From: Kappaphycus alvarezii | Taxonomy: Eukaryota; Rhodophyta; Florideophyceae; Gigartinales; Solieriaceae | Direction of reading: 5' to 3' | Length of the DNA: 64,000 bases | NCBI GenBank assembly: GCA_002205965.3 | Contig: NADL03000498.1 | Location: 372,001-436,000 of the forward strand | Shown: piece by piece, positions 6,370-52,400 of the stretch | Numbering within the stretch: position 1 is the first letter of the stretch | Layout: each line of letters begins with the position of its first letter | Position numbers and translations under genes: made by a program | Notes under the pieces: model-generated | What the model saw: the letters and a program-made list of their open reading frames with translations, nothing else | The model's database searches: none | Told to the model about the DNA's origin: nothing

Positions 6370-7443
6370 CTATATAGTCATTCCGTACTTTCTGTAAAGA
6401 GCGCCTGAAAATAGTGTTTCTACATAACCATGATTGACACGACTGGAGAACGATAAAGAGTCAAGATAATAGAAGAAAGTCTCCATTTCGCGGCTCATGC
6501 CTTTGCAAAGAGATCGAATTGAAGTCTTTTCTTTGCTTCGTTTCATTCTGGATGCCGTCCTACGAAATTTTGAGCATAAATGACCCTCCCACGGTAGTCG
6601 ACCTTTGTACATTTCAACCATAGAGTATCCCAAAGAAAAGAAGTCATCACGAAAAGAGGCTTCAATGCGATCATGGCAGTTTGGCGAAGCATATAACACA
6701 TCTCCAGCGATTCTACTGAGCGAACTGATACGAGTGTTTCCACGGTCATAACGAGCCATTTCATATGTCTTCGCAAGACCATAATCAACTAAGAATATTT
6801 CTTCTTGGTTCTCCGCCCCATAAAGAATGTTGCCCGGCTTAACATCCCTGTGAAGCCACCCAGCATCATGGATTGTTTTGAGACTTCTGTTTATCTTTAT
6901 ACCTGCTATCAAAACGTCACGAATCGAATACGTCCTGTAGTCTCTTAGGCGATCTTCCAGGGAGCTCCCAAGCAAATCAATAATCAGCACTCTCTTACCA
7001 TCCCAATCACCGTAATAACGATAGTTTGGTATATTCGAACGGTGGTTCAGTCTGCCCAGGTCTGAGTATACATGCTCCTCATTTTCAAGCATAGAAATTC
7101 CACTGGACGATTCGGCTACTTTTGCAGCGTATGCGATTCCCGTCTCTATATCTGTAACCTTGTATACTTTTCCGAACGAGCCTTCTCCGAGTTTATGACC
7201 TAGTTGAAATCGGGAGAAAACTAAACACCCGTACCCCCACTGGTCCCCTGGACCAGCATCGTTTGTAACCGAACCTTGCCCTCTTGAAGTGTAAGCCCTA
7301 TCGCCCGAACGACAGGTTTGATATGTTTGGTGTCTATCTGGACTTTGCCCTCTTGATCGGTGAGGTCTGGAACCTGAATGATGATGTCGGTAGTTATAGC
7401 TTCTATTTCTGCTTTTCCTTCTTCGGTTTCGGCGACGAAGCAT
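6370..7443 (-). CDS. casein kinase 1-like protein kinase, divergent
   Basis: Intact 357-codon frame for a Ser/Thr kinase that transfers phosphate from ATP. Residues 1-75 form a basic Arg/Ser/Tyr/His-rich tail starting MLRRRNRRRK. The kinase domain runs from about residue 79 to 345. It has the glycine loop GEGSFGKVY (86-94), the lysine in AAK (108), the catalytic loop HRDVKPGN (198-205), the metal-binding DYG (220-222), RDDFFSLGY (265-273) and GRLPWEG (281-287). The LLGSSLED, SLGY and LPWEG blocks are those of the casein kinase 1 family. The activation segment reads GDVLYASPNCH where typical CK1 has GTARYASINTH, and the usual IPYRE motif is not evident. The start was chosen because the paralogue at 31.6 kb begins with the same MLRR and shares a YRH motif. 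A TATA box lies 59 bp upstream. Intronless. The substrate is unknown. The basic tail suggests nucleic-acid or membrane contact, or nuclear import, but this is inference. Confidence 0.92.
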   Translation of the reverse strand: MLRRRNRRRKSRNRSYNYRHHHSGSRPHRSRGQSPDRHQTYQTCRSGDRAYTSRGQGSVTNDAGPGDQWGYGCLVFSRFQLGHKLGEGSFGKVYKVTDIETGIAYAAKVAESSSGISMLENEEHVYSDLGRLNHRSNIPNYRYYGDWDGKRVLIIDLLGSSLEDRLRDYRTYSIRDVLIAGIKINRSLKTIHDAGWLHRDVKPGNILYGAENQEEIFLVDYGLAKTYEMARYDRGNTRISSLSRIAGDVLYASPNCHDRIEASFRDDFFSLGYSMVEMYKGRLPWEGHLCSKFRRTASRMKRSKEKTSIRSLCKGMSREMETFFYYLDSLSFSSRVNHGYVETLFSGALYRKYGMTI

Positions 7444-7501
7444 GATATATATAGATGTAGAGATTTGTTAGTGAAGTATGAGAAATATAAAGCCTAAGGT
7501 T

Positions 7502-10029: not shown

Positions 10030-10490
10030 ATTTTTTCCACAGATCTTTGTGAGTTAGTCAGCAATGTTATATTTGGACTGAATTAGTGCGACATTAGAAA
10101 TTTCTTTCTCATGGCAGGCTTTCCGGGCTGCCGCAATGTCAACCATGAGTCGACGTTCAGTTGTGTATCGAGATCTAGTAAGCACATCAAAGACCTGTTT
10201 GCTGTCTGTAAACATTAGTAGGGGAATGGATTGACCCAGAAGTCGTTTCAAATCATGGCGGATCAGAAATGCACACTCAAATCCATCAACGAAGGAAAGT
10301 GTGTCTCCGGCAATGCACGAGCGGAGGATGCGTCGGGACTTGTAAGAACAGAAATGAATAATTGCACAGCGATTACTAGCATCAGCTATTAGAATGATAA
10401 AGCCAAGTTAAGCGTTACCGTCAGGGTGATTGTTGTTAGATGAATCAGAATATACCAACCAGCGGAGAGATTCTTGACCTAATTGATATG
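10030..10490 (-). mobile_element. Ty1/Copia fossil, RNase H end
   Basis: On the minus strand the Copia RNase H signature is clear: SLRWLVYSDSSNNN near the right end, then FTDSKQVFDVLTRSRYTTER and RRLMVDIAAARKA, ending in the NIAD region that closes Copia pol. Only this 3' end of pol remains next to R1. It is plainly a broken fossil. LTRs are not resolved. It belongs to the same lineage as the plus-strand copy starting at 11.9 kb, judging by shared peptide blocks, so the two lie in divergent orientation about 1.4 kb apart. Confidence 0.85.
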
Positions 10491-10491
10491 T

Positions 10492-10850
10492 GGTAAATCA
10501 TCGGGAGAAGAGATATTCAGAACCAGTTACCCCAAGAAGGAGGTGTTGCAAGCGACAAAAGTGCTACCGTGGTATAGTTGAACGAATAAAAAGGAGTGTA
10601 TATGGAAGACAGTTGAAAGGGCTACAAGTAAGTATGGAAGGAGCAAGGTATACCACTGATGCTCTGTGACCAGCGTAGGAAAAAGGTTTCCTGGGTCTGG
10701 AGTTGACTCTCAACTTCCTACTACTCGGGACTTGGCTTGAAGTTGTCTGCCAACTTGCTTGACCTCCACAAGAGGAAACAGTTTACTCAGCTTTATAGAC
10801 TTTTTGGCGAACTCTAAAGTCTCAAAAAAAAATACTAAGAACCATAAAAT
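10492..10850 (-). repeat. dispersed repeat R1, copy 1
   Basis: About 360 bp. Its reverse complement matches 46285-46647 along the whole length, for example GTCAAGCAAGTTGGCAGACA, CAGAGCATCAGTGGTA and TATACCACGGTAGCAC. A diverged third copy is at about 28110-28290, sharing GTTGCAAG-GACAAAA-TGCTA and GGTATACCACT-TGCTC. At 10492 it abuts Copia RNase H sequence and at 46647 it ends next to other DNA. The shared break at GATTTACC therefore marks a true element end. No coding frame is conserved. A short non-autonomous transposon or solo LTR is most likely. Confidence 0.8.
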
Positions 10851-28385: not shown

Positions 28386-28737
28386 TGCTCATTGAATAAC
28401 GTAAGCTGTACGCTTAATAGGCCAGATTTCGACTTTCAACTTCGCAAATTATTAGGTTATGGAATTGAATTAGTCTCTCACCTTACCTGATAATTCGTAT
28501 AAGAAGCATTCATTTAGCTTACGTAGCCTTTTTTTCACACTTAATTCTCAATCAAACATGGTGAATACCAGAAAATGTATCCAACGGAATCTGTTGGACG
28601 AAAAAGAATTACATCAAATACTATCAGAGAAAAAACCTGTATCTACTGCTATTTATCTCTATTATCCAGGTCAGAGTTAAAAAACTACTAAAAAATATCC
28701 ATAGCTCTAATGCAGTCGCTAAAAATTCTGCGAAACG

Positions 28738-28860
28738 GTATAAAATGATCAATAGCCTCATTAGATATGCCAGGGTCCTCCTATCTCTCCTTATGACATT
28801 CAGGGAAAGGTATAGTATGATAAATATCCTCCTTGGATATACCAGGGTCCTCCGTTAGCT
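28738..28860 (+). repeat. imperfect direct repeat, about 73 bp
   Basis: CGGTATAAAATGATCAATAG and ATGCCAGGGTCCTCC recur 73 bp downstream as AGGTATAGTATGATAAATAT and ATACCAGGGTCCTCC. Two copies only. Probably an old tandem duplication. Confidence 0.7.
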
Positions 28861-31469: not shown

Positions 31470-31571
31470 CTTGCAAGTGGAACGTAAACTCCAGATGAGA
31501 CATACACTGTTCAGTGATTATCTAAAAAACTCTGAGTAATTAACCTTCAGGTAGAAATAACTACATAGAGC

Positions 31572-32762
31572 ATGCTGCGTCGACTCCTAAGAAGATGGAG
31601 AAGTGGAAATCGACAATGTAACTATCGACATATTTATTCAGATTATAGACCTCAGCTATCAGATACCCAGAGGACGAATGGATTTGATAGCAACAGAAGT
31701 TACACTTCAAGTGAAAATCATCGCAGCTCAAGAGGGGGAATGTCAAGTACATACAACACTCAGTCGGAATGCAGCTCTAAAAGCCCGCGAGGAAGGATAA
31801 CTGCCTCCCGTCGGATGTACATTCCGAGTGATGGGTCTTACAGATCAGGTGGAAGAAGCGCGAACGCTCATGGGGCCAGTTCAAGCAGTAATTCGAAAAA
31901 CAGAGATTTAGTAGACTCCCGCTTTGAACTAGGCCGTAAACTCGGAGAAGGCTCCTTTGGCAAAGTATACAATGCCACTGATACAGAAACGGGAAGGAAG
32001 TACGCTGCGAAGGTAGCCGAATATTCGGACGGGATTTCCATGCTCCACAATGAGTATCGAGTCTACTCGGACCTGAGAAGAGTGGGTCAACTTTCGAATA
32101 TACCAAAGCTTAGTTATTACGGAGGTTGGCATGGTAAGAAAGTATTAATTATTGATAAGCTCGGAAACTCCCTGGAAAGTCATCTGAAACGGGGCGGAAC
32201 GTACTCACTTCGTTATGTCTTAATGACAGGGATTCAGATGAACCGGAATATCAAAATACTCCATGATGCAGGATGGATCCATAGGGATATAAAGCCGGGA
32301 AATATTCTCAGTGGGGGCGGGGACGAGAATGAAATTTATCTGGTTGATTTTGGCGTTGCCAAAAGCTATGCAATGGCTCACCGTGACCGTGCAGACACTT
32401 GTACCCATTCGTTTGATCGTATAGCTGGAGACGTGTTGTACGCTTCGCCAAACTGTCACGCTCACTCTGAAGCCTCCTTTCGTGATGACTTTTTTTCTTT
32501 GGGTTACACCATGGTTCAGATGTACAACGGTCGACTACCGTGGGAGGGCCGTTCCTTCTCGACATTTGAAGAAGCAGTATCCCTCATGAAACGGGCCAAA
32601 GAAAAGACATCATTTCGTTCTCTCTGCAGGGGTATGGGCCGCGAGGTGTACGCATTCTTCGAGTACGTCGCCTCGCTATCATTTTCAAGCCGGGTCGATC
32701 ATGCTTACATTGAAAAGCTACTTTCAGGAGCCCTTCGGAGAATGTATGGAATAGACATTTAG
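31572..32762 (+). CDS. casein kinase 1-like protein kinase, divergent
   Basis: Intact 396-codon frame, paralogue of the gene at 6370-7443. Residues 1-115 form a basic, Ser/Arg/Tyr-rich, probably disordered tail starting MLRRLLRRWR and sharing the NYRH motif with its paralogue. It is about 40 residues longer there. The kinase domain (about 118-385) has GEGSFGKVY (125-133), the lysine of AAK (147), HRDIKPGN (237-244), DFG (259-261), GDVLYASPNCH (286-296), RDDFFSLGY (304-312) and GRLPWEG (320-326). All residues needed for catalysis are present and DFG is canonical, so activity is expected. The family is casein kinase 1 by the LGNSLES, SLGY and LPWEG blocks, with the same altered activation segment as the paralogue. 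No intron is needed. An R2 repeat starts about 60 bp after the stop. Partners and substrates cannot be inferred. Confidence 0.93.
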   Translation: MLRRLLRRWRSGNRQCNYRHIYSDYRPQLSDTQRTNGFDSNRSYTSSENHRSSRGGMSSTYNTQSECSSKSPRGRITASRRMYIPSDGSYRSGGRSANAHGASSSSNSKNRDLVDSRFELGRKLGEGSFGKVYNATDTETGRKYAAKVAEYSDGISMLHNEYRVYSDLRRVGQLSNIPKLSYYGGWHGKKVLIIDKLGNSLESHLKRGGTYSLRYVLMTGIQMNRNIKILHDAGWIHRDIKPGNILSGGGDENEIYLVDFGVAKSYAMAHRDRADTCTHSFDRIAGDVLYASPNCHAHSEASFRDDFFSLGYTMVQMYNGRLPWEGRSFSTFEEAVSLMKRAKEKTSFRSLCRGMGREVYAFFEYVASLSFSSRVDHAYIEKLLSGALRRMYGIDI

Positions 32763-44179: not shown

Positions 44180-44806
44180 TGTCGTTGAGACGTGTCACAT
44201 CCGTAGTTGTGTGTACACATGAGTGGAGAGTCCCATGTCAACAGAGTTGCCAAAAAGTACATTTCTGGAGTACAGTACTTCCCACTTGACATCTTAAGTA
44301 TAGAACGAACCCGGTGATGACAATACGTCCAGAGGGCATGACACTCGATCGATTTGCGCGCCTTAAGTGGAATACCAAGAGAGTTGTTCGTGGTTTTGCA
44401 ACGGGCGTGAAAATGTCGACGTTAGCGAATTGTTGTTTTGTGGGAATTGAGGTAGGTATGGAGACAAGAATGCAAGTCTGCACTATGCGGGAAGTTGGAA
44501 ATAGAGGACGAACGGGCGGACAGTTCAGAGCCGCGATACTTAAAGAATAGTCTGCGAGCGCGTCGTGGATGAAGGGGGCAAGCGTTTCCTTTGTATTTTT
44601 CTGTTCTTGGTGCACTCAGTAAACTATTGGGGTGCGCTACGAACGGGGCACACACGCCAGTTATTATCAACTATTCACTCGGTTATACTGTTCCCTATCT
44701 TTCTATCTACTGTTGTGGCGACTACGCTTTGTGGATTCTAAGACTTTGCTCGCGTCGCAGGCTTGCAGCTGTGCAACAACGTTGTCTTAGTTTTAGTCTA
44801 ACAACA
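44180..44806 (+). repeat. Copia 5' LTR
   Basis: 627 bp, starting TGTCGTTGAGACG and ending CTAACAACA, with the TG...CA ends of LTRs. It aligns without gaps to 51774-52400. By hand count about 17 of 627 positions differ, several clustered near the two ends. Confidence 0.95.
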
Positions 44807-45488
44807 TTCCGGAATCGTCAGCTGATGCTTAAACTATTGTTGTACTAAGATGTTGTTTGAGGAAGCCGCGACGATGGAGGAGCAAGCAAAACACTCGTGT
44901 GGGCCTGAAGCTCAACCGGCAAGCCAGGATATTAAGTTGAGTTGGTCACCCGATGCCGGTGAGACCAAACAAGAGTATGTTCGTACTTGGATGCAGGGTA
45001 TCATCGAAGAAGATATTCGCGGAGTAGGAGTTCAGGACGGCTTTCAAGAACTTTTGCATCCTGAAATACTGTTCTGCCCCAGAACCTGAATAGTACGCAG
45101 GCTCCGATGATGTACAAGGAAGTGCGTGATGTCTGTTAGGCGCGTGCTGATAGGAACGGATTTTTTTGTCGCCGTCATCTAAAGACTTTTAGTTTACTGT
45201 ACTACCCCCCCTTGTCCAAAATTGCTTATAGTTCTGGTCCTTCCTCGTCCACCGAGAGCCTTGCTTATCATTACTGCAGTCCTCTCCAAATTTACTTCCA
45301 TTTTATCTAGATATTTTTATACTGTATCTACCCCTCTGAATCGATCCCGAATCAAGTTCTTTTCCCCTTTTTGCTTACCTCCTCCTCCAAATTCACTTTT
45401 TTGAGAAAAAGGGCGCAAATTCACTACTACAAAATCCCTTGCAGATTTATTTTACCTATTCCTAATCTATAGAACCTGCCCCGGGAGC

Positions 45489-45497
45489 CTATTTAAA
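45489..45497 (+). promoter_or_regulatory. TATA-like box and CT-rich leader of the nested gene
   Basis: CTATTTAAA sits 118 bp upstream of the ATG at 45607 and is followed by a long C/T/A-rich leader (CTTCCTTCCAAG, CATCACCCCTGTCCCTCC) that ends AACAAAATG. Pyrimidine-rich leaders after TATA are typical of well-expressed genes in filamentous fungi. Confidence 0.5.
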
Positions 45498-45606
45498 CCC
45501 CTTCCTTCCAAGTTTCAAACGTCCACCATCATTTTACTCATCACCCCTGTCCCTCCACACACCAAAAACACCCTCTATTGCCTCCCATTCCCCAGAGCCT
45601 AACAAA

Positions 45607-46212
45607 ATGAACAATCTATGCCCCTCGAAATTCATTTCCAAAAATCGCCATCCCCTCCCTTTAAACTCTATTCCCCTACTCCCTCTCGCACCTACTGACC
45701 GTGATGACTACCTGCGCCGGCAAACCAAAAAGAAGGCGATCGAATTCGTGCGTCGCCTTTTTATTGAGGATGAGGCGGAGGAGGTAGGTAAGGGGCGGGA
45801 GTGGGACATCGAGGACGGAGCTGGGGAGATCTTCGAGGAATGGGTAGCCCCTGAATTGGTCTACGAGGTTAATAACGGGGAGTATGATGAGGAGGAAGAG
45901 GGGAAAGGGGAAGAAGAGGAGGAAGAGGAGGAAGAGGAGGAAGATGAGGATGATGAGGATGATGAGGACGAGGACGAGGTGGATGAGGAAAAAGGGGACA
46001 TGGAAAGTGTTGGAGTGGTGGGGCCTGGACTGGAGAGTGTGGAACAAGTGGTGCCGACGCTGGAACTGGATGGAGATATCTTTAGTAGCTTAGATATCTC
46101 CAAGGAAGAAATGGAGCGCTACGAGCCGTTTGCAGATATTTGTGGGGGCTGTTTGGGCAGCATGGATATTTTGGAGGAGTTGTTTGGATCTGATTTAGAG
46201 AATGGGAAATAA
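45607..46212 (+). CDS. acidic low-complexity protein, nested inside Copia
   Basis: Intact 201-codon frame. Residues 1-30 are Pro/Leu-rich. Residues 31-57 are charged and probably helical (DRDDYLRRQTKKKAIEFVRR). Residues about 94-128 form an almost uninterrupted Glu/Asp tract. Residues 150-199 are ordered-looking and acidic (VVPTLELDGDIFSSLDISKE, EPFADICGGCLGSMDILEEL). There is no signal peptide or membrane segment. Acidic tracts occur in histone chaperones and transcriptional activators, and the last part resembles a short hydrophobic/acidic activation region. Both are guesses from composition. The gene lies between two gag segments of the Copia element, with its own TATA and leader upstream and repeat R1 starting about 70 bp after its stop. 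It came in with an insertion, not as part of Copia. I do not recognise the family. The antisense poly-Ser and other frames here are shadows of the Glu repeat. Confidence 0.6.
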   Translation: MNNLCPSKFISKNRHPLPLNSIPLLPLAPTDRDDYLRRQTKKKAIEFVRRLFIEDEAEEVGKGREWDIEDGAGEIFEEWVAPELVYEVNNGEYDEEEEGKGEEEEEEEEEEEDEDDEDDEDEDEVDEEKGDMESVGVVGPGLESVEQVVPTLELDGDIFSSLDISKEEMERYEPFADICGGCLGSMDILEELFGSDLENGK

Positions 46213-46284
46213 GAGGACCTCATTTATTGTTAGCTTCTTAAGTATCTTTTGTTTAGAGTATATCGTCCATACAAATCGTTTTTA

Positions 46285-46647
46285 TGCATTTCCTGGTACC
46301 TTCTGTAGTTTTGTTCGGACTTTAGGGGTAGCCAAAAGTCTATGTAAGCTGAGTAAACTGCTTCCTTATGGAGAGGTCAAGCAAGTTGGCAGACAACTTC
46401 AAGTCAAGTCCCGAGTATTAAGAAGTTCAGAGTCAACTCCGGACCCAAGAAAAAGTTTTCCTACGCTGCTCACAGAGCATCAGTGGTAGACCCTGCCTCT
46501 TCCATACTTGATTGTAGCCCTCTCAACTCTTTTCCATATACACTCCTTTTTGTTCGTTCAACTATACCACGGTAGCACTTTTTTCGCTTGCAACATCTCC
46601 TTCTTGGGGCAATTGGTTCTGAGTATCTCTCCTCCCGACGATTTACC
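46285..46647 (+). repeat. dispersed repeat R1, copy 2
   Basis: The reverse complement of 10492-10850 over about 360 bp, with clear identity in GTCAAGCAAGTTGGCAGACA, ACTTCAAG-CAAGTCCCGAGTA, CATATACACTCCTTTTT and TATACCACGGTAGCAC. It forms the right end of the insertion inside the Copia gag region and may be the vehicle or 3' tail of the inserted DNA. Confidence 0.8.
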
Positions 46648-49600
46648 CCTATCGATTTCGTTTACTCCAAAGGAGGTGGAATTGCTAAACGATGTGGATT
46701 ATCTATCAAGAAGGCCCTAGCTATGTTTTACTCTGATCCTCAGTCCCAGCAAGATTCTTTCGACATGTGTCGTTAAATGGTCGAGGCGGCTACGTCTATC
46801 ATATCAGGTGCGAGAAGGGAGAAGGAAAGAGATTCTGATGTTTGAAACAAGTCAGATCGCTCTGAAGACTTTCATAACATTCCGACACCAAGGGCTTGAG
46901 TACCTGCAGAGCGAGAAATTGAGCAACCGACACAAGATAACCGTCCTGTTCGTCGTTTTGGACCAACTGAACAGAATGAAGCAAGAGTACAATACGCACC
47001 TTACCAGCAGAGAGTACCAGGCATCCCGCAGGCTACAGTTGTTCGAAGTCCACGAACTCGTCATGATGTAACGTCGAATCCAGGACCGGACTACGTTCAT
47101 CCGCACCACATTCCCGGGTCGCAAGGAGTGTCAACTCACGCAATAAGTGTTCTAAGCAAGTTAGCTACTCGCTTTAAGGACCGCACTGAAAAGTTTTGTG
47201 GCGATGATGGGGAGAATTGGGAAGATGTTTATTCTACATACATGAACTGTACGACGCAATGGGGAGGCCTGAGCACGCTGCATAGGGTAACATCGAAAAA
47301 ATTCTGGCTGATGAGGCGAAAACGTATTAAAAAAATGTAATGTTCAGGCCAATCCAAACGTGTTTAAGTGCTGTGAGGACGTTAATAAGTTACCCTACAA
47401 AAGTTTCACGGACTTGAAGCACAGGAGGCGGCACTGGGGCACTTTGAAGCTTTGTCAATGTACGATTTCGTGAAGAAGACTGGATCTCTCGTAAGTGTGC
47501 TAAAATCAGTGCGCGATGAGATAGTAAAGCATTTCAACCTAGAGGCAGACGGAAAAAGATCAAAAACGATGGTTAAAAAACACCGTCAGATCGTTCAATT
47601 GGGCTCGACCGACTACTACACGCGCACACCAACTCCATTTTGCTCAGATGTATTCGACTCTCAAGGCACAAGCAATTGAGGAAGAGAAAGCGCGTGCAAC
47701 CAGGAGAGATTGTGGCTCATTCAGAGGGAAAGTTGGTGACAAATCTCTGGGCAATACTGTTTGGTTTGGAGACATGTATGGCCGCGGTAAAGAGAACCTT
47801 AAACACAAACCATTCAATGGACAGCAGGAAGAGAGATCATTCAAGGGCAGTTGCTACGGGTGCGGCAAGAAAGGCTTTAAGAGGTCAAACTGTCCGGACT
47901 GCAAGTCCAATCGCAAGGACTACACGCAGAAAGCGCCAAGGGGCTCAAGGCTATCAACGCAGTAGCGACGCTGTCAGAGGCAGCGGATGTGATGGCTGAA
48001 CTTGAGGTCCAGTATGGCGAAGATTGGGAGGAGGTTTTGAGAGGTGAAGACCCTGTCGATGAATCATCTAACGAGTCGAACCACGGCAAAGAAATTGGGT
48101 TCGCACTTCCTGATGATGAATCAGACGAAGAGGGCACGGGAGGGGTCAGCATTGATGAGGAGGCCGATGGAAAATGTGTGGACCAATTTGATATTTGCTA
48201 TCACGGAGATACAGAAACCTTCAATGAGAAGAGTACAAGCGTCGAGATCATGGAAGGGTTCCCTGAGATTCCCATCAATGCCACTTCACCATGCGCAAAG
48301 CCCGACGAGTTTCATGGCGCGTGAATGGATACTGGAGCGTCCACATCCGTTTGTGGATTGAAAAAGACCAAGGCTTATGCAGCTTTCGCGGGCTTTAAGT
48401 TAAGGCTGAAAGGGTCCAATCGTGCGTTCAAGTTTGGAGAATCGAGGACGGGGAGTATAGGCACGATCGTTGTTTGTCTGTCAGTGGCTGGGCATGCATA
48501 CGTCGAGATAAAAGTGGACGTGGTCAAGCCCAACATTTCTCTCCTTATAGGCTTGGACGCAATGGACAATGCAGGGATATACGTTAAAAACGTACAGAAC
48601 TTGCTTGTGCATGATAAGGCCGGCTGGACTCTATCCCTAGAAAGGAAAATGGGTCATCTGTACTACACATGGGAGAAAGAGATATTGTTCACGATCTGCG
48701 AGCTGAAGCGTAGGCATTTCGGCTTTTACCACCCTTCTACATAAAAATTATTCAACCTTATGAAACGTGAAAAGCCAGAAAATGTAAACGAGGAGACTAA
48801 AAGGATGTTGGAGAAAGTTGCGAAACAGTGCAAACACATGCCAATACCACGCACCGAGGCCGCTGAGTTTCTCTGCATCACTCCCGGGAGTCATCACTTT
48901 CAATCGTATGGTTACTGTTGATCTAATGTGGATAACAGGGAAGCCGTTGTTACACGTCATAGACACAGATACACACTATTCATCCGCAAGGTTCCTGCCG
49001 GGCGAATCTACTGATGAAGCTTGGGAAACATTCATGCTTTGTTGCGTCTCTACGTACATGGGTTTCCCCGACGTAATCACAGCAGATTCTGGTTCGGTCT
49101 TCACTTCTAAGAAGTGGAACAAACTTGCTAATAATGCCGGTGTCGCGGTGGAGATGTCACCAGCCGAGAGCTCGAACTCCATGGGGGTTGGTGAGCGGTA
49201 CTATGATCCGCTAAGGCGAATCTTCCAGAAGATCCTTGGTGATCATCCCGGATATAGCAAAGAGCTGATCTTGTCCTTGACAAACAAGGCTATGAATGAC
49301 ACGTGTGGCCCATCGGGCTTGGTACCTAGTTTATTGGTGTTTGGCTCGATTCTGCGAGTGCCGGTTGGCTCAATCGGCTTACTGAACCAAGAAGAGCGTA
49401 TGAATATGCTCGAGACTGCACGCCAGGAAATGGAGTCAATCGTTGCCAAGCTGAAACTTAGAATAGTTCTTAAGAAGAGGGCACCAAGCGCAGCATATGC
49501 ATAAGAACTGGATCACCCTTTTTCTCAAAGAGAGTGATCCAGTTCTCGTTTGGCGCAAACGAAAGAAACACTCAAGGGGGACGGGGCCATACGAAGTGAC

Positions 49601-51773
49601 GAAGATAGAAGGTAAAGTAGTCACGATATCAAACGACAGAGGCGAACCGCAGGAGTTTAACACATCGAGCGCCAAACTGTACACCACCGCTGACGAGTAC
49701 TTACACGAGCACACCGATGGGAAGATAGCAGACGAAGGTTACCCTGACTCTAACGAGGACAGCGAAAGCGAAAGCGAGGATGAATATGACGACCACTTGT
49801 CTGAACCCGATTATGTCTACGACTTGTCTGATGGGGATTTCTATTGTGATTATGATTCAGGCAGCGAACATTACATTTATCTCACTGAAGTACTGCCAAT
49901 AGGAGATGAGCGCAGGCAAGAAGAGCGTTACGATCAAGCACGCCGTAAGGAGGTCAAGGGTCTGGAAATAATGGGAACCTGGATGAAGGTTAAGGTGGAC
50001 AGTCTACCTGAAGATGCTAACGTACTGGGCACTAGGTTCGCACTAGCGCTGAAGAATGTCGGTACGCCACGAGAAAAGGCCAAAGCGAGACCCGTGGTTC
50101 AGGGTCATACGGACCGTGAGAAGTACAACGTGGTACACGATTCAAAAACCCTCCATCAACGCTCGATTCGATTCATCGTGTCAATGGCCGCCATGCACAG
50201 TTTCAATTTGTGGACGCATGACATAACGCAATCATACTTACAATCCGACAGCGCATTGAAAAGAGACGTGTATTTGCGCCCTCCATCAGAGCTAAAGATG
50301 CAAAAGGACCTCTGCCTCAAGCTGGTAAAGCCACTCTACGGGCTAGCAGAAAGCGGCAACTACTGGAGTTCAACAAAATCGAATCATCACCGCGTCGATT
50401 TGGGCATGCGTCAGACTTGCGGCGATTTGAGCCTGTATTATCGTCGCACCGGAGGGTTACTAATCGGACTACTGGGTATCGTGGTTGACGATACGTTGCA
50501 GTGCGGCAGCTCGCAGTTTTGGTAAGAGACCAGTCGCACCATGGAATGCTTCCAGAGCACAGAGCGCATCTTGGATAATGTGACATTCTCGGGTATCAAC
50601 GTGGACACGAAAAACGAAGGGTACTACTTGCATCAGATGGACTATGCAAACAAGCTGAATTTGTTACCGAATGACGCTACATTCCGCGATTTTCGCTCCG
50701 CAAGGGCACGCATTTCATGGCTTTGCAATACGAGACCAGACATCAGTTGCTCTGTGGCCAAGCTAGCGCAAGTGACGGAGGGCGAGTTCTGTTTGGAAAG
50801 AGTGAAAGCCGCAAATGAAGTCATACGGCATGTAACAAAGAACACGCAACTGGGTATCGACATCCCGAAGCTGGATATGGAGTCAGCATCCATCGTTGTG
50901 TACACCGACGCCTCACTCGCTAACAATGCCGACTTGTCGATTCAGATCGGATACGTCATCATTCTCAGGGACAAGCACGGAGTCGCAAATTTGGTCGAGT
51001 ACACAAGTTAAAATTGCCGAAGAGTCACTCATTCTTCATTAGCAGGGGAAATAATGGCGTTCTCAGCAGGCTTTGACGCAGGGTTTGTCATCAAACATGA
51101 TATAGAAGACATCACGAAGCATCGTTTTCCACTGTACCTGATGACGGATAGCAAGGGGCTGTTCGACATGGTGACACGCAATTCTTATTCGGCAGAGCGC
51201 AGGCTAATGATAGACATGTCAGCTATTAGGGAGTCGTATCAGAAGCACGAGATAGACGGGTTAGCGCACTTTCCTGGATCGCAGAACCCGGCTGACTCGA
51301 TGACGAAGATAACGCAGAACGTTACGCTGTTGGGTATTATGGCTGGAAGAGCAACGGTGCAGGCGATGGAGTGTGTGACAAGGAAAGAGGAGTAGGCTGG
51401 ATTCGATTGGAGATAATTTTGAGTTGGGAAGTCAAGGGTAGAATACGGAAGCCCGGTTCGTAAGCTGATATTCGCGCACGGGATGCGATGGCGGCGTATC
51501 TCGGAACCGCAAGGATGGACATTCGCGCTACCGCTAGCCGGACCTCGAGTGCCGGCAATCGTTCAAAGTTGTTTTGTTGCTGTTTTTTTTGTTTTCGCTG
51601 ATGATGTTTGAACGCTTCCGAGTTGGCTACAAGGAATCGGTGGCCTAGCACCAGAGCGTCGTAAGTTATATTTTGTATCTTTTTTTTGTGTGTTTTTCAA
51701 ATAAGATGATGGGCAGACACCTCGGAACATTCTAGAAACTGGAACCGATCTCGGACATGAAGAAAATGGGCTG

Positions 51774-52400
51774 TGTCGTTGAGACGTGTCACATCCGTAG
51801 TTGTGTGTACACATGTGTGGACAGTCCTATGTAAACAGAGTTGTCAACAAGTACATTTCTGGAGTACAGTACTTCCCACTTGACATCTTAAGTATAGAAC
51901 GAACCCGGTGATGACAATACGTCCAGAGGGCATGACACTCGATCGATTTGCGCGCCTTAAGTGGAATACCAAGAGAGTTGTTCGTGGTGTTGCAACGGGC
52001 GTGAAAATGTCGACGTTAGCGAATTGTTGTTTTGTGGGAATTGAGGTAGGTATGGAGACAAGAATGCAAGTCTGCACTATGCGGGAAGTTGGAACTAGAG
52101 GACGAACGGGCGGACAGTTCAGAGCCGCGATACTTAAAGAATAGTCTGCGAGCGCGTCGTGGATGAAGGGGGCAAGCGTTTCCTTTGTATTTTTCTGTTC
52201 TTGGTGCACTTAGTAAACTACTGGGGTGCGCTGCGAACGGGGCACACACGCCAGCTATTATCAACTATTCACTCGGTTATACTGTTCCCTATCTTTCTAT
52301 CTACTGTTGTGGCGACTACGCTTTGTGGATTCTAAGACTTTGCTCGCGTCGCAGGCTTACAGCTGTGCAATGAAGTTATCTTAGTTTTAGTCTAACAACA
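51774..52400 (+). repeat. Copia 3' LTR
   Basis: 627 bp, colinear with 44180-44806 without gaps, with TG...CA ends. It is preceded by the purine-rich tract at 51759-51770. Confidence 0.95.

Follow-up and report, generated by a model that had tools for sequence, protein, structure and literature searches.

The stretch analyzed here (the window) comprises 64,000 nucleotides of the red alga Kappaphycus alvarezii (assembly GCA_002205965.3, contig NADL03000498.1, positions 372,001 to 436,000 of the forward strand). On its forward strand it holds a Copia retrotransposon (44180-52400), recognized by its paired long terminal repeats (LTRs; 44180-44806 and 51774-52400, 627 bp each and 97.3% alike), by its domain order, with rve upstream of RVT_2, and by uninterrupted copies. 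The 5′ part of this element, its gag region, is interrupted by about 1.5 kb of foreign sequence that carries a TATA-like box, a pyrimidine-rich leader, an acidic open reading frame (ORF) of 201 codons and a repeat, R1. A first-pass annotation of the window had named each of these features, had assigned the surrounding element to Copia and had set the intervening segment apart from it, and all of this was borne out. It had further proposed two origins for the segment: a host gene that had been captured and inserted, or a small transposon carrying a gene that had landed in the Copia element. By our analysis the insert is very probably a solo LTR of a high-copy Ty3/gypsy-type retrotransposon (45134-46654, forward strand, 1521 bp), and this LTR bears a codon-constrained acidic frame behind the TATA-like box. 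The landing of a separate element with promoter-like sequence and an open frame is thereby retained, and the small gene-bearing transposon is replaced by a Ty3/gypsy solo LTR.

The borders of the insert were read from other copies in the same genome (336 Mb in 884 contigs). A DNA search with positions 45100-46650, in which the best 40 of 6078 first-look candidates were scored, gave 41 matches. Among the 40 matches other than the window itself, which are 85-93% identical to the insert, 31 begin at query base 26-35, where base 35 is the start of the LTR, and eight begin at query base 47-62, the join point of copies with another 5′ end; one pair of pieces is a split copy. Read from these copies, the LTR unit begins TGTTAGGCGC. 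It starts with TG, and its 3′ end is CA in 49 of 57 distinct copies. The search for LTR copies covering the required part of the LTR had yielded 71, of which these 57 remained once near-identical and duplicate ones had been removed (L046, L047, L054 and L064 yielded no copy meeting the length rule). A perfect target-site duplication (TSD) of 5 bp flanks 29 of the 57 copies, namely 16 of the 31 whose 5′ end is of the window type and 13 of the remaining 26; some copies lacking a perfect TSD are LTRs of full elements. In the window the TSD copies are ATGTC (45129-45133) on the left and ATTTC (46655-46659) on the right, the border being set by C596, C595 and C762, the three further Copia copies in which both flanks are present. 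When the flanks were searched separately, they directly adjoined each other in all three, and exactly 45134-46659 was absent; three more Copia matches to the right flank are partial and end short of the insertion site. Among the Copia copies found, the insertion is private to that of the window. The comparison with other Copia copies that the first-pass annotation had proposed thus defined both the empty site and the TSD; the outcome named there as a refutation, an identical placement of the frame in most other copies, did not appear. R1 (46346-46647) is the 3′ end of the inserted LTR, in agreement with the earlier suggestion that it marks an end of the inserted element.

The full element from which such an LTR would derive was recognized through same-strand LTR pairs about 7.5 kb apart. 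At least nine of these, at a spacing of 7.35-7.58 kb, occur among the listed matches to a 29-mer from within the frame, and three were read (L039, L040 and L041). The two LTRs are 99.7% identical in L039 (C595), 99.5% in L040 (C549) and 99.8-99.9% in L041. A conserved sequence, TTTGGTACTC, the candidate primer-binding site, follows the 5′ LTR, a polypurine feature consisting of a run of 6-7 G lies immediately 5′ of the 3′ LTR in all three, and L040 has the TSD GATTG on both outer sides. The internal region of L041 encodes, in this order, aspartic protease (PR), reverse transcriptase (RT), RNase H (RH) and integrase (INT), which is the Ty3/gypsy order, and the solved structure nearest to its RT is the Ty3 enzyme; the frame in gag position of L041 matched no family. 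Because paired LTRs surround PR-RT-RH-INT with a Ty3-like RT in these full-length relatives, we assign the insert to Ty3/gypsy as a solo LTR. At another locus (L049, G000:C805:716500-723500) two LTR copies, 98.9% alike, lie about 3 kb apart in opposite orientation, the first with a perfect 5-bp duplication.

The family is large. The 29-mer, allowed up to three mismatches, has 2016 matches in the genome, and its reversed control has none. A protein search of the genome with the LTR frame, in which the best 150 of 10480 candidates were scored, gave at least 165 matches; this genome search of the 201-residue protein, one of the checks suggested in the first-pass annotation, showed a frame that recurs in LTRs. 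The frame sits inside the same LTR in all 57 copies aligned over it. A diverged subfamily (L045) has a homologous frame, 53% identical to that of the window, and a search with the L045 frame (best 150 of 9813 candidates scored) gave at least 275 matches of its own, many without a stop. A relic that extends the frame family was seen at L050. Two 5′ terminal sequences, TGTTAGGCGCGTGC and TGTTAGGCGCAGAT, occur among the L001-L070 LTR copies, and the common 3′ ends are CTATCA (32 of 57 copies) and CTAACA (11 of 57); two types at each end suggest recombining subfamilies.

The acidic ORF (45607-46212, forward strand, 201 codons and TAA) lies within a stop-to-stop frame of 248 codons; its start codon, 473 nt into the window LTR, is the first ATG there. 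An in-frame Glu/Asp tract (45889-45989), built of tandem repeats, varies in length between copies. We asked of the rest of the ORF whether it changes as a coding sequence does, excluding the acidic tract (45880-45999) and codons with gaps or stops from the counts of nonsynonymous and synonymous differences per site (pN and pS). Over the 57 copies, differences from the window copy amount to 0.128 and 0.131 at third positions of the two non-acidic ORF parts and to 0.072-0.084 at first and second positions; the flanks show no third-position excess. In 200 sampled pairs of these copies pN/pS is 0.49 in the true frame, whereas the two shifted frames give 1.15 and 1.08 and frames of the flanks 0.75-0.96. 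Eight additional copies, chosen blind to their frames among the listed 29-mer matches, likewise gave 0.49 (bootstrap 0.39-0.62), versus 0.87 and 1.19 in shifted frames. Between the window copy and the L045 subfamily, pN is 0.30 and pS 0.77 over 110 codons. Indels relative to the window copy number 129 and 74 in the flanks; the two ORF parts outside the acidic tract, themselves somewhat shorter, have 12 and 2. On a star-like tree built from the flanks, whose internal branches make up 0.197 of a total of about 2.59, internal-branch changes per site are 0.118 in the ORF versus 0.266 and 0.248 in the flanks, and terminal changes differ little (1.83 versus 1.99 and 1.93). With its 2016 genome matches against none for the control, and with this constraint at the codon level, the frame is more than chance.

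Several observations count against the reading of the insert as a solo LTR with a constrained frame, and we set them out together. The window copy ends in CG rather than CA, and the two copies of its TSD differ at one base. No TSD is shared by the outer ends of L039, and L041 (G000:C385, a 24-kb contig) has the G-run before its first LTR and the primer-site sequence after its last, so that it is part of a tandem arrangement or an assembly effect and no isolated insertion. The set of 57 copies was drawn mostly by protein similarity, a criterion that favors intact frames. Nine copies brought in by DNA alone gave a pN/pS of 0.54, with an interval (0.39-0.74) that overlaps the lowest values (0.61-0.71) of their own flank frames, which span 0.61-1.17; the eight copies picked by the 29-mer were drawn with a pattern that itself lies inside the frame. 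A long frame spans the ORF in only one of the eight pattern-found copies (L081) and is broken in seven; in the protein-biased set of 57 it is open in 26, and a hand list of 23 was used in one comparison. Singleton variants, which largely mirror decay after insertion, are near neutral (0.88, with 23 stops observed and 16.5 expected), and shared variants gave 0.66; it is thus the shared variation that carries the constraint. Of 62 indels in the acidic tract, 54 have a length divisible by three, a pattern that triplet slippage alone would give, and for this reason we discarded them as coding evidence. Finally, ATGs precede the frame in 51 of the 57 copies (one or two in 46, three to five in five; none in six). 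The simplest reading of these sequence comparisons is that purifying selection operated during element activity and was followed by largely neutral decay of the fixed copies.

The constraint acts on the family and not on the window copy. Outside the acidic tract the window ORF has eight private changes, five nonsynonymous and three synonymous, and no private indel, at a rate of 1.66% compared with 1.60% in the flanks. The openness of its frame is therefore uninformative on local selection; the earlier suggestion had been that a frame kept open inside a decaying retroelement would imply recent arrival or selection.

The layout around the frame gives clues to how it might be expressed. The TATA-like box (TATTTAAACC, 45490-45499, forward strand), the putative promoter of the frame, shows 93-100% per-base conservation over the 57 copies and ends 108 nt upstream of the frame, and the pyrimidine-rich leader in between is devoid of ATG. 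The last 284 nt of the LTR (46371-46654, forward strand), a candidate leader or promoter region for gag, contain no ATG in 43 of 57 copies. Eight distinct loci have sequence beyond the 5′ LTR; in four of them (L003, L041, L048 and L051) an ATG-free run of 374-388 nt leads to the ATG in gag position, and in the other four (L017, L037, L040 and L052) the run to the first downstream ATG is 106-323 nt. These ATG-free stretches are only suggestive, because dinucleotide shuffles sometimes reproduce them (57 of 2000 for the L041 stretch, 34 of 2000 for the 473-nt stretch and 333 of 2000 for the last 284 nt of the window LTR). The layout would fit two starts, one for the frame and another, close to the end of the LTR, for gag-pol; the frame would then lie in the U3 (unique 3′) region. 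A second promoter at 46535 (CATATACA) is not claimed, since at 46536 and 46540 some copies have A and others C.

Database searches offered little on the nature of the product. The two frame parts outside the acidic tract have no Pfam family at E<=1 and none above the cut-off in Pfam or NCBIfam, and a profile of 20 frames matched no solved structure. Twelve Pfam matches of the whole frame, all below the cut-offs and most of them on the acidic tract, were dropped, as were a PDB match to Icln (E 0.094) and an NCBIfam match below its cut-off (E 0.12). An AlphaFold2 model of the frame (mean predicted local distance difference test, pLDDT, 52.3; predicted template modeling score, pTM, 0.18) is too poor for a fold search; at low confidence it places a helix at residues 32-57, a short helix near the C-terminus and little else. 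The conserved acidic-hydrophobic C-terminus contains MDILEELFGSD. From sequence and model together we infer that the frame would encode an accessory protein of the element, acidic and for the most part disordered. The predicted basic helix at residues 32-57, the Glu/Asp tract and this C-terminus led us to propose an accessory regulator, such as an acidic activator or a chaperone, a role that we regard as the most likely one but hold with low confidence; the three parts together have what we take to be the general appearance of acidic regulatory proteins.

Two of the alternatives treat the intact frame as something other than a part of the LTR family. Capture of a host gene into the Copia element, or its delivery by a gene-bearing DNA transposon, would account for an intact frame with TATA-like box and leader and for the clean borders of the insert. 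It is contradicted by the copy number, about 2000, with a piece of the frame matching 2016 places in the genome, by the position of the frame inside the same LTR in 57 distinct aligned copies, by the 5-bp TSD with LTR-type ends and by full-length elements in which two LTRs surround a Ty3-type pol. The frame itself might be of ancient host origin; among the best-scoring places listed of thousands of candidates, LTR copies alone appeared. For the insert in the window we consider capture or delivery of a host gene very improbable. Equally far from probable is co-option of the window copy by the host, with selection keeping it intact: the window frame is open and seven of eight pattern-found copies have no long frame, but its private changes fall at the flank rate in a 5:3 proportion, as in a copy that has simply changed little, and open frames occur in 26 of the 57 copies as well, a set biased to intact frames.

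A third alternative accepts the solo LTR and takes the frame for a chance one, kept open by GA-rich composition and encoding no functional protein. The GA-rich repeat tract, the seven broken frames among eight pattern-found copies, the near-neutral singletons, the lack of a known protein family and the low-confidence, mostly unstructured model would all be expected of it. Yet the codon-position and pN/pS signals appear in the true frame and not in shifted frames with the acidic tract excluded, which also makes a chance frame driven by the Glu repeat, a possibility raised in the first-pass annotation, unlikely; moreover, the diverged subfamily has a homologous frame, and a conserved TATA-like box stands ahead of it. 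We judge this alternative improbable.

Full elements are known to be reduced to solo LTRs by recombination between their LTRs. The solo LTR at this locus probably arose when a full Ty3/gypsy element inserted into the Copia gag region and LTR-LTR recombination then deleted its internal region. An accessory protein of the retrotransposon may be made from a promoter in the LTR. If gag-pol has a start of its own close to the LTR 3′ end, the ORF would lie in U3, like MMTV (mouse mammary tumor virus) sag; if, alternatively, gag-pol is made on the same long transcript as the frame, the ORF would lie in the R (repeated) region. Every solo LTR would keep box and frame and would be a potentially self-contained gene until it decays. 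Taken further, the LTR of this Ty3/gypsy lineage may be a complete gene unit, with promoter, frame and end, that encodes a conserved acidic regulator; the thousands of solo LTRs would then be dispersed gene copies able to influence the element or the host in trans, and LTR recombination would remove gag-pol and leave the regulator. We put this forward tentatively, as possible rather than probable.

The window holds two further traces of related LTRs. R1 matches 10492-10793 in reverse complement (89%), within a fragment from the 3′ part of another LTR of this family (10484-10835, reverse strand); the fragment is 86-89% identical to the compared LTR copies and begins near the frame end. Positions 28661-28846 (reverse strand) are weakly homologous to the C-terminal portion of the acidic frame (32% identity over 62 residues, E 4e-4) and probably represent, judging from this match, a relic of a diverged LTR subfamily. 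Elsewhere in the window two open protein-kinase frames were found, at 6370-7467 (reverse strand; Pkinase, E 9.4e-28) and 31569-32762 (forward strand; Pkinase, E 4.1e-29). An inverted match of 661 nt (74%) links them, close to shared repeats (D9), and they possibly represent an amplified kinase family. Pkinase_fungal was just above the cut-off in one window frame, taken by itself a weak hint at a fungus. A beta-tubulin exon compared with the PDB matched three tubulin chains at E 1e-195 and none at E 1e-250. Direct repeats at 37.2-39.0 kb and 60.8-62.5 kb (D2-D5 and D10) are 76-82% alike and 23.5 kb apart.

LTRs are ordinarily regarded as repeats that regulate and do not encode protein, and solo LTRs as dead remnants. 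Here, an abundant Ty3/gypsy family has an LTR that holds a protein frame under constraint. If the frame is expressed, each solo LTR would be a candidate source of an element protein that acts in trans, solo LTRs may repeatedly be mistaken for host genes by gene finders, and MMTV sag could be compared with a system outside the vertebrate retroviruses. The insert resembles Ty3/gypsy solo LTRs in its TG...CA type of ends, 5-bp TSD, empty sites and full-length PR-RT-RH-INT relatives, and differs from them in that the window-family LTR is 1.5 kb long with a conserved frame of about 200 codons. The solo LTR itself is ordinary, and the conserved acidic frame in it is the unusual part.

In the mainly open-access literature on LTR-encoded proteins and ORFs, as far as its accessible text goes, we found MMTV sag and retroviral work and no description of a protein encoded inside a Ty3/gypsy LTR; a precedent may exist. 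Promising phrases in the portions seen of PMC12037069, PMC10787394, PMC9603552, PMC13195028, PMC5408686, PMC1560396, PMC4016481 and PMC11117352 concern the element polyprotein, non-LTR elements, the whole retrotransposon or methods, and none of them a frame inside an LTR. The crapaud family of Podospora, a fungal LTR family, is like the window family in its many solo LTRs and in the diverged 5′ halves of its LTRs; its divergent U3 half, by contrast, is shorter than 200 bp, and the sections consulted describe no LTR-encoded protein (PMC10787394). The closer parallel is MMTV, whose LTR of about 1.3 kb is long because it encodes the accessory protein Sag, located in the 3′ LTR (PMC3026287, in the part available). 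In MMTV, splicing into the 3′ LTR yields the transcripts from which Sag is made, whereas the window family has a TATA-like box directly before the frame. MMTV is a vertebrate retrovirus and the window family a Ty3/gypsy element, and the frame parts outside the acidic tract have no Pfam match; the likeness to MMTV is one of architecture: in both, a long LTR has a protein-coding frame inside it, a predicted one in the window family.

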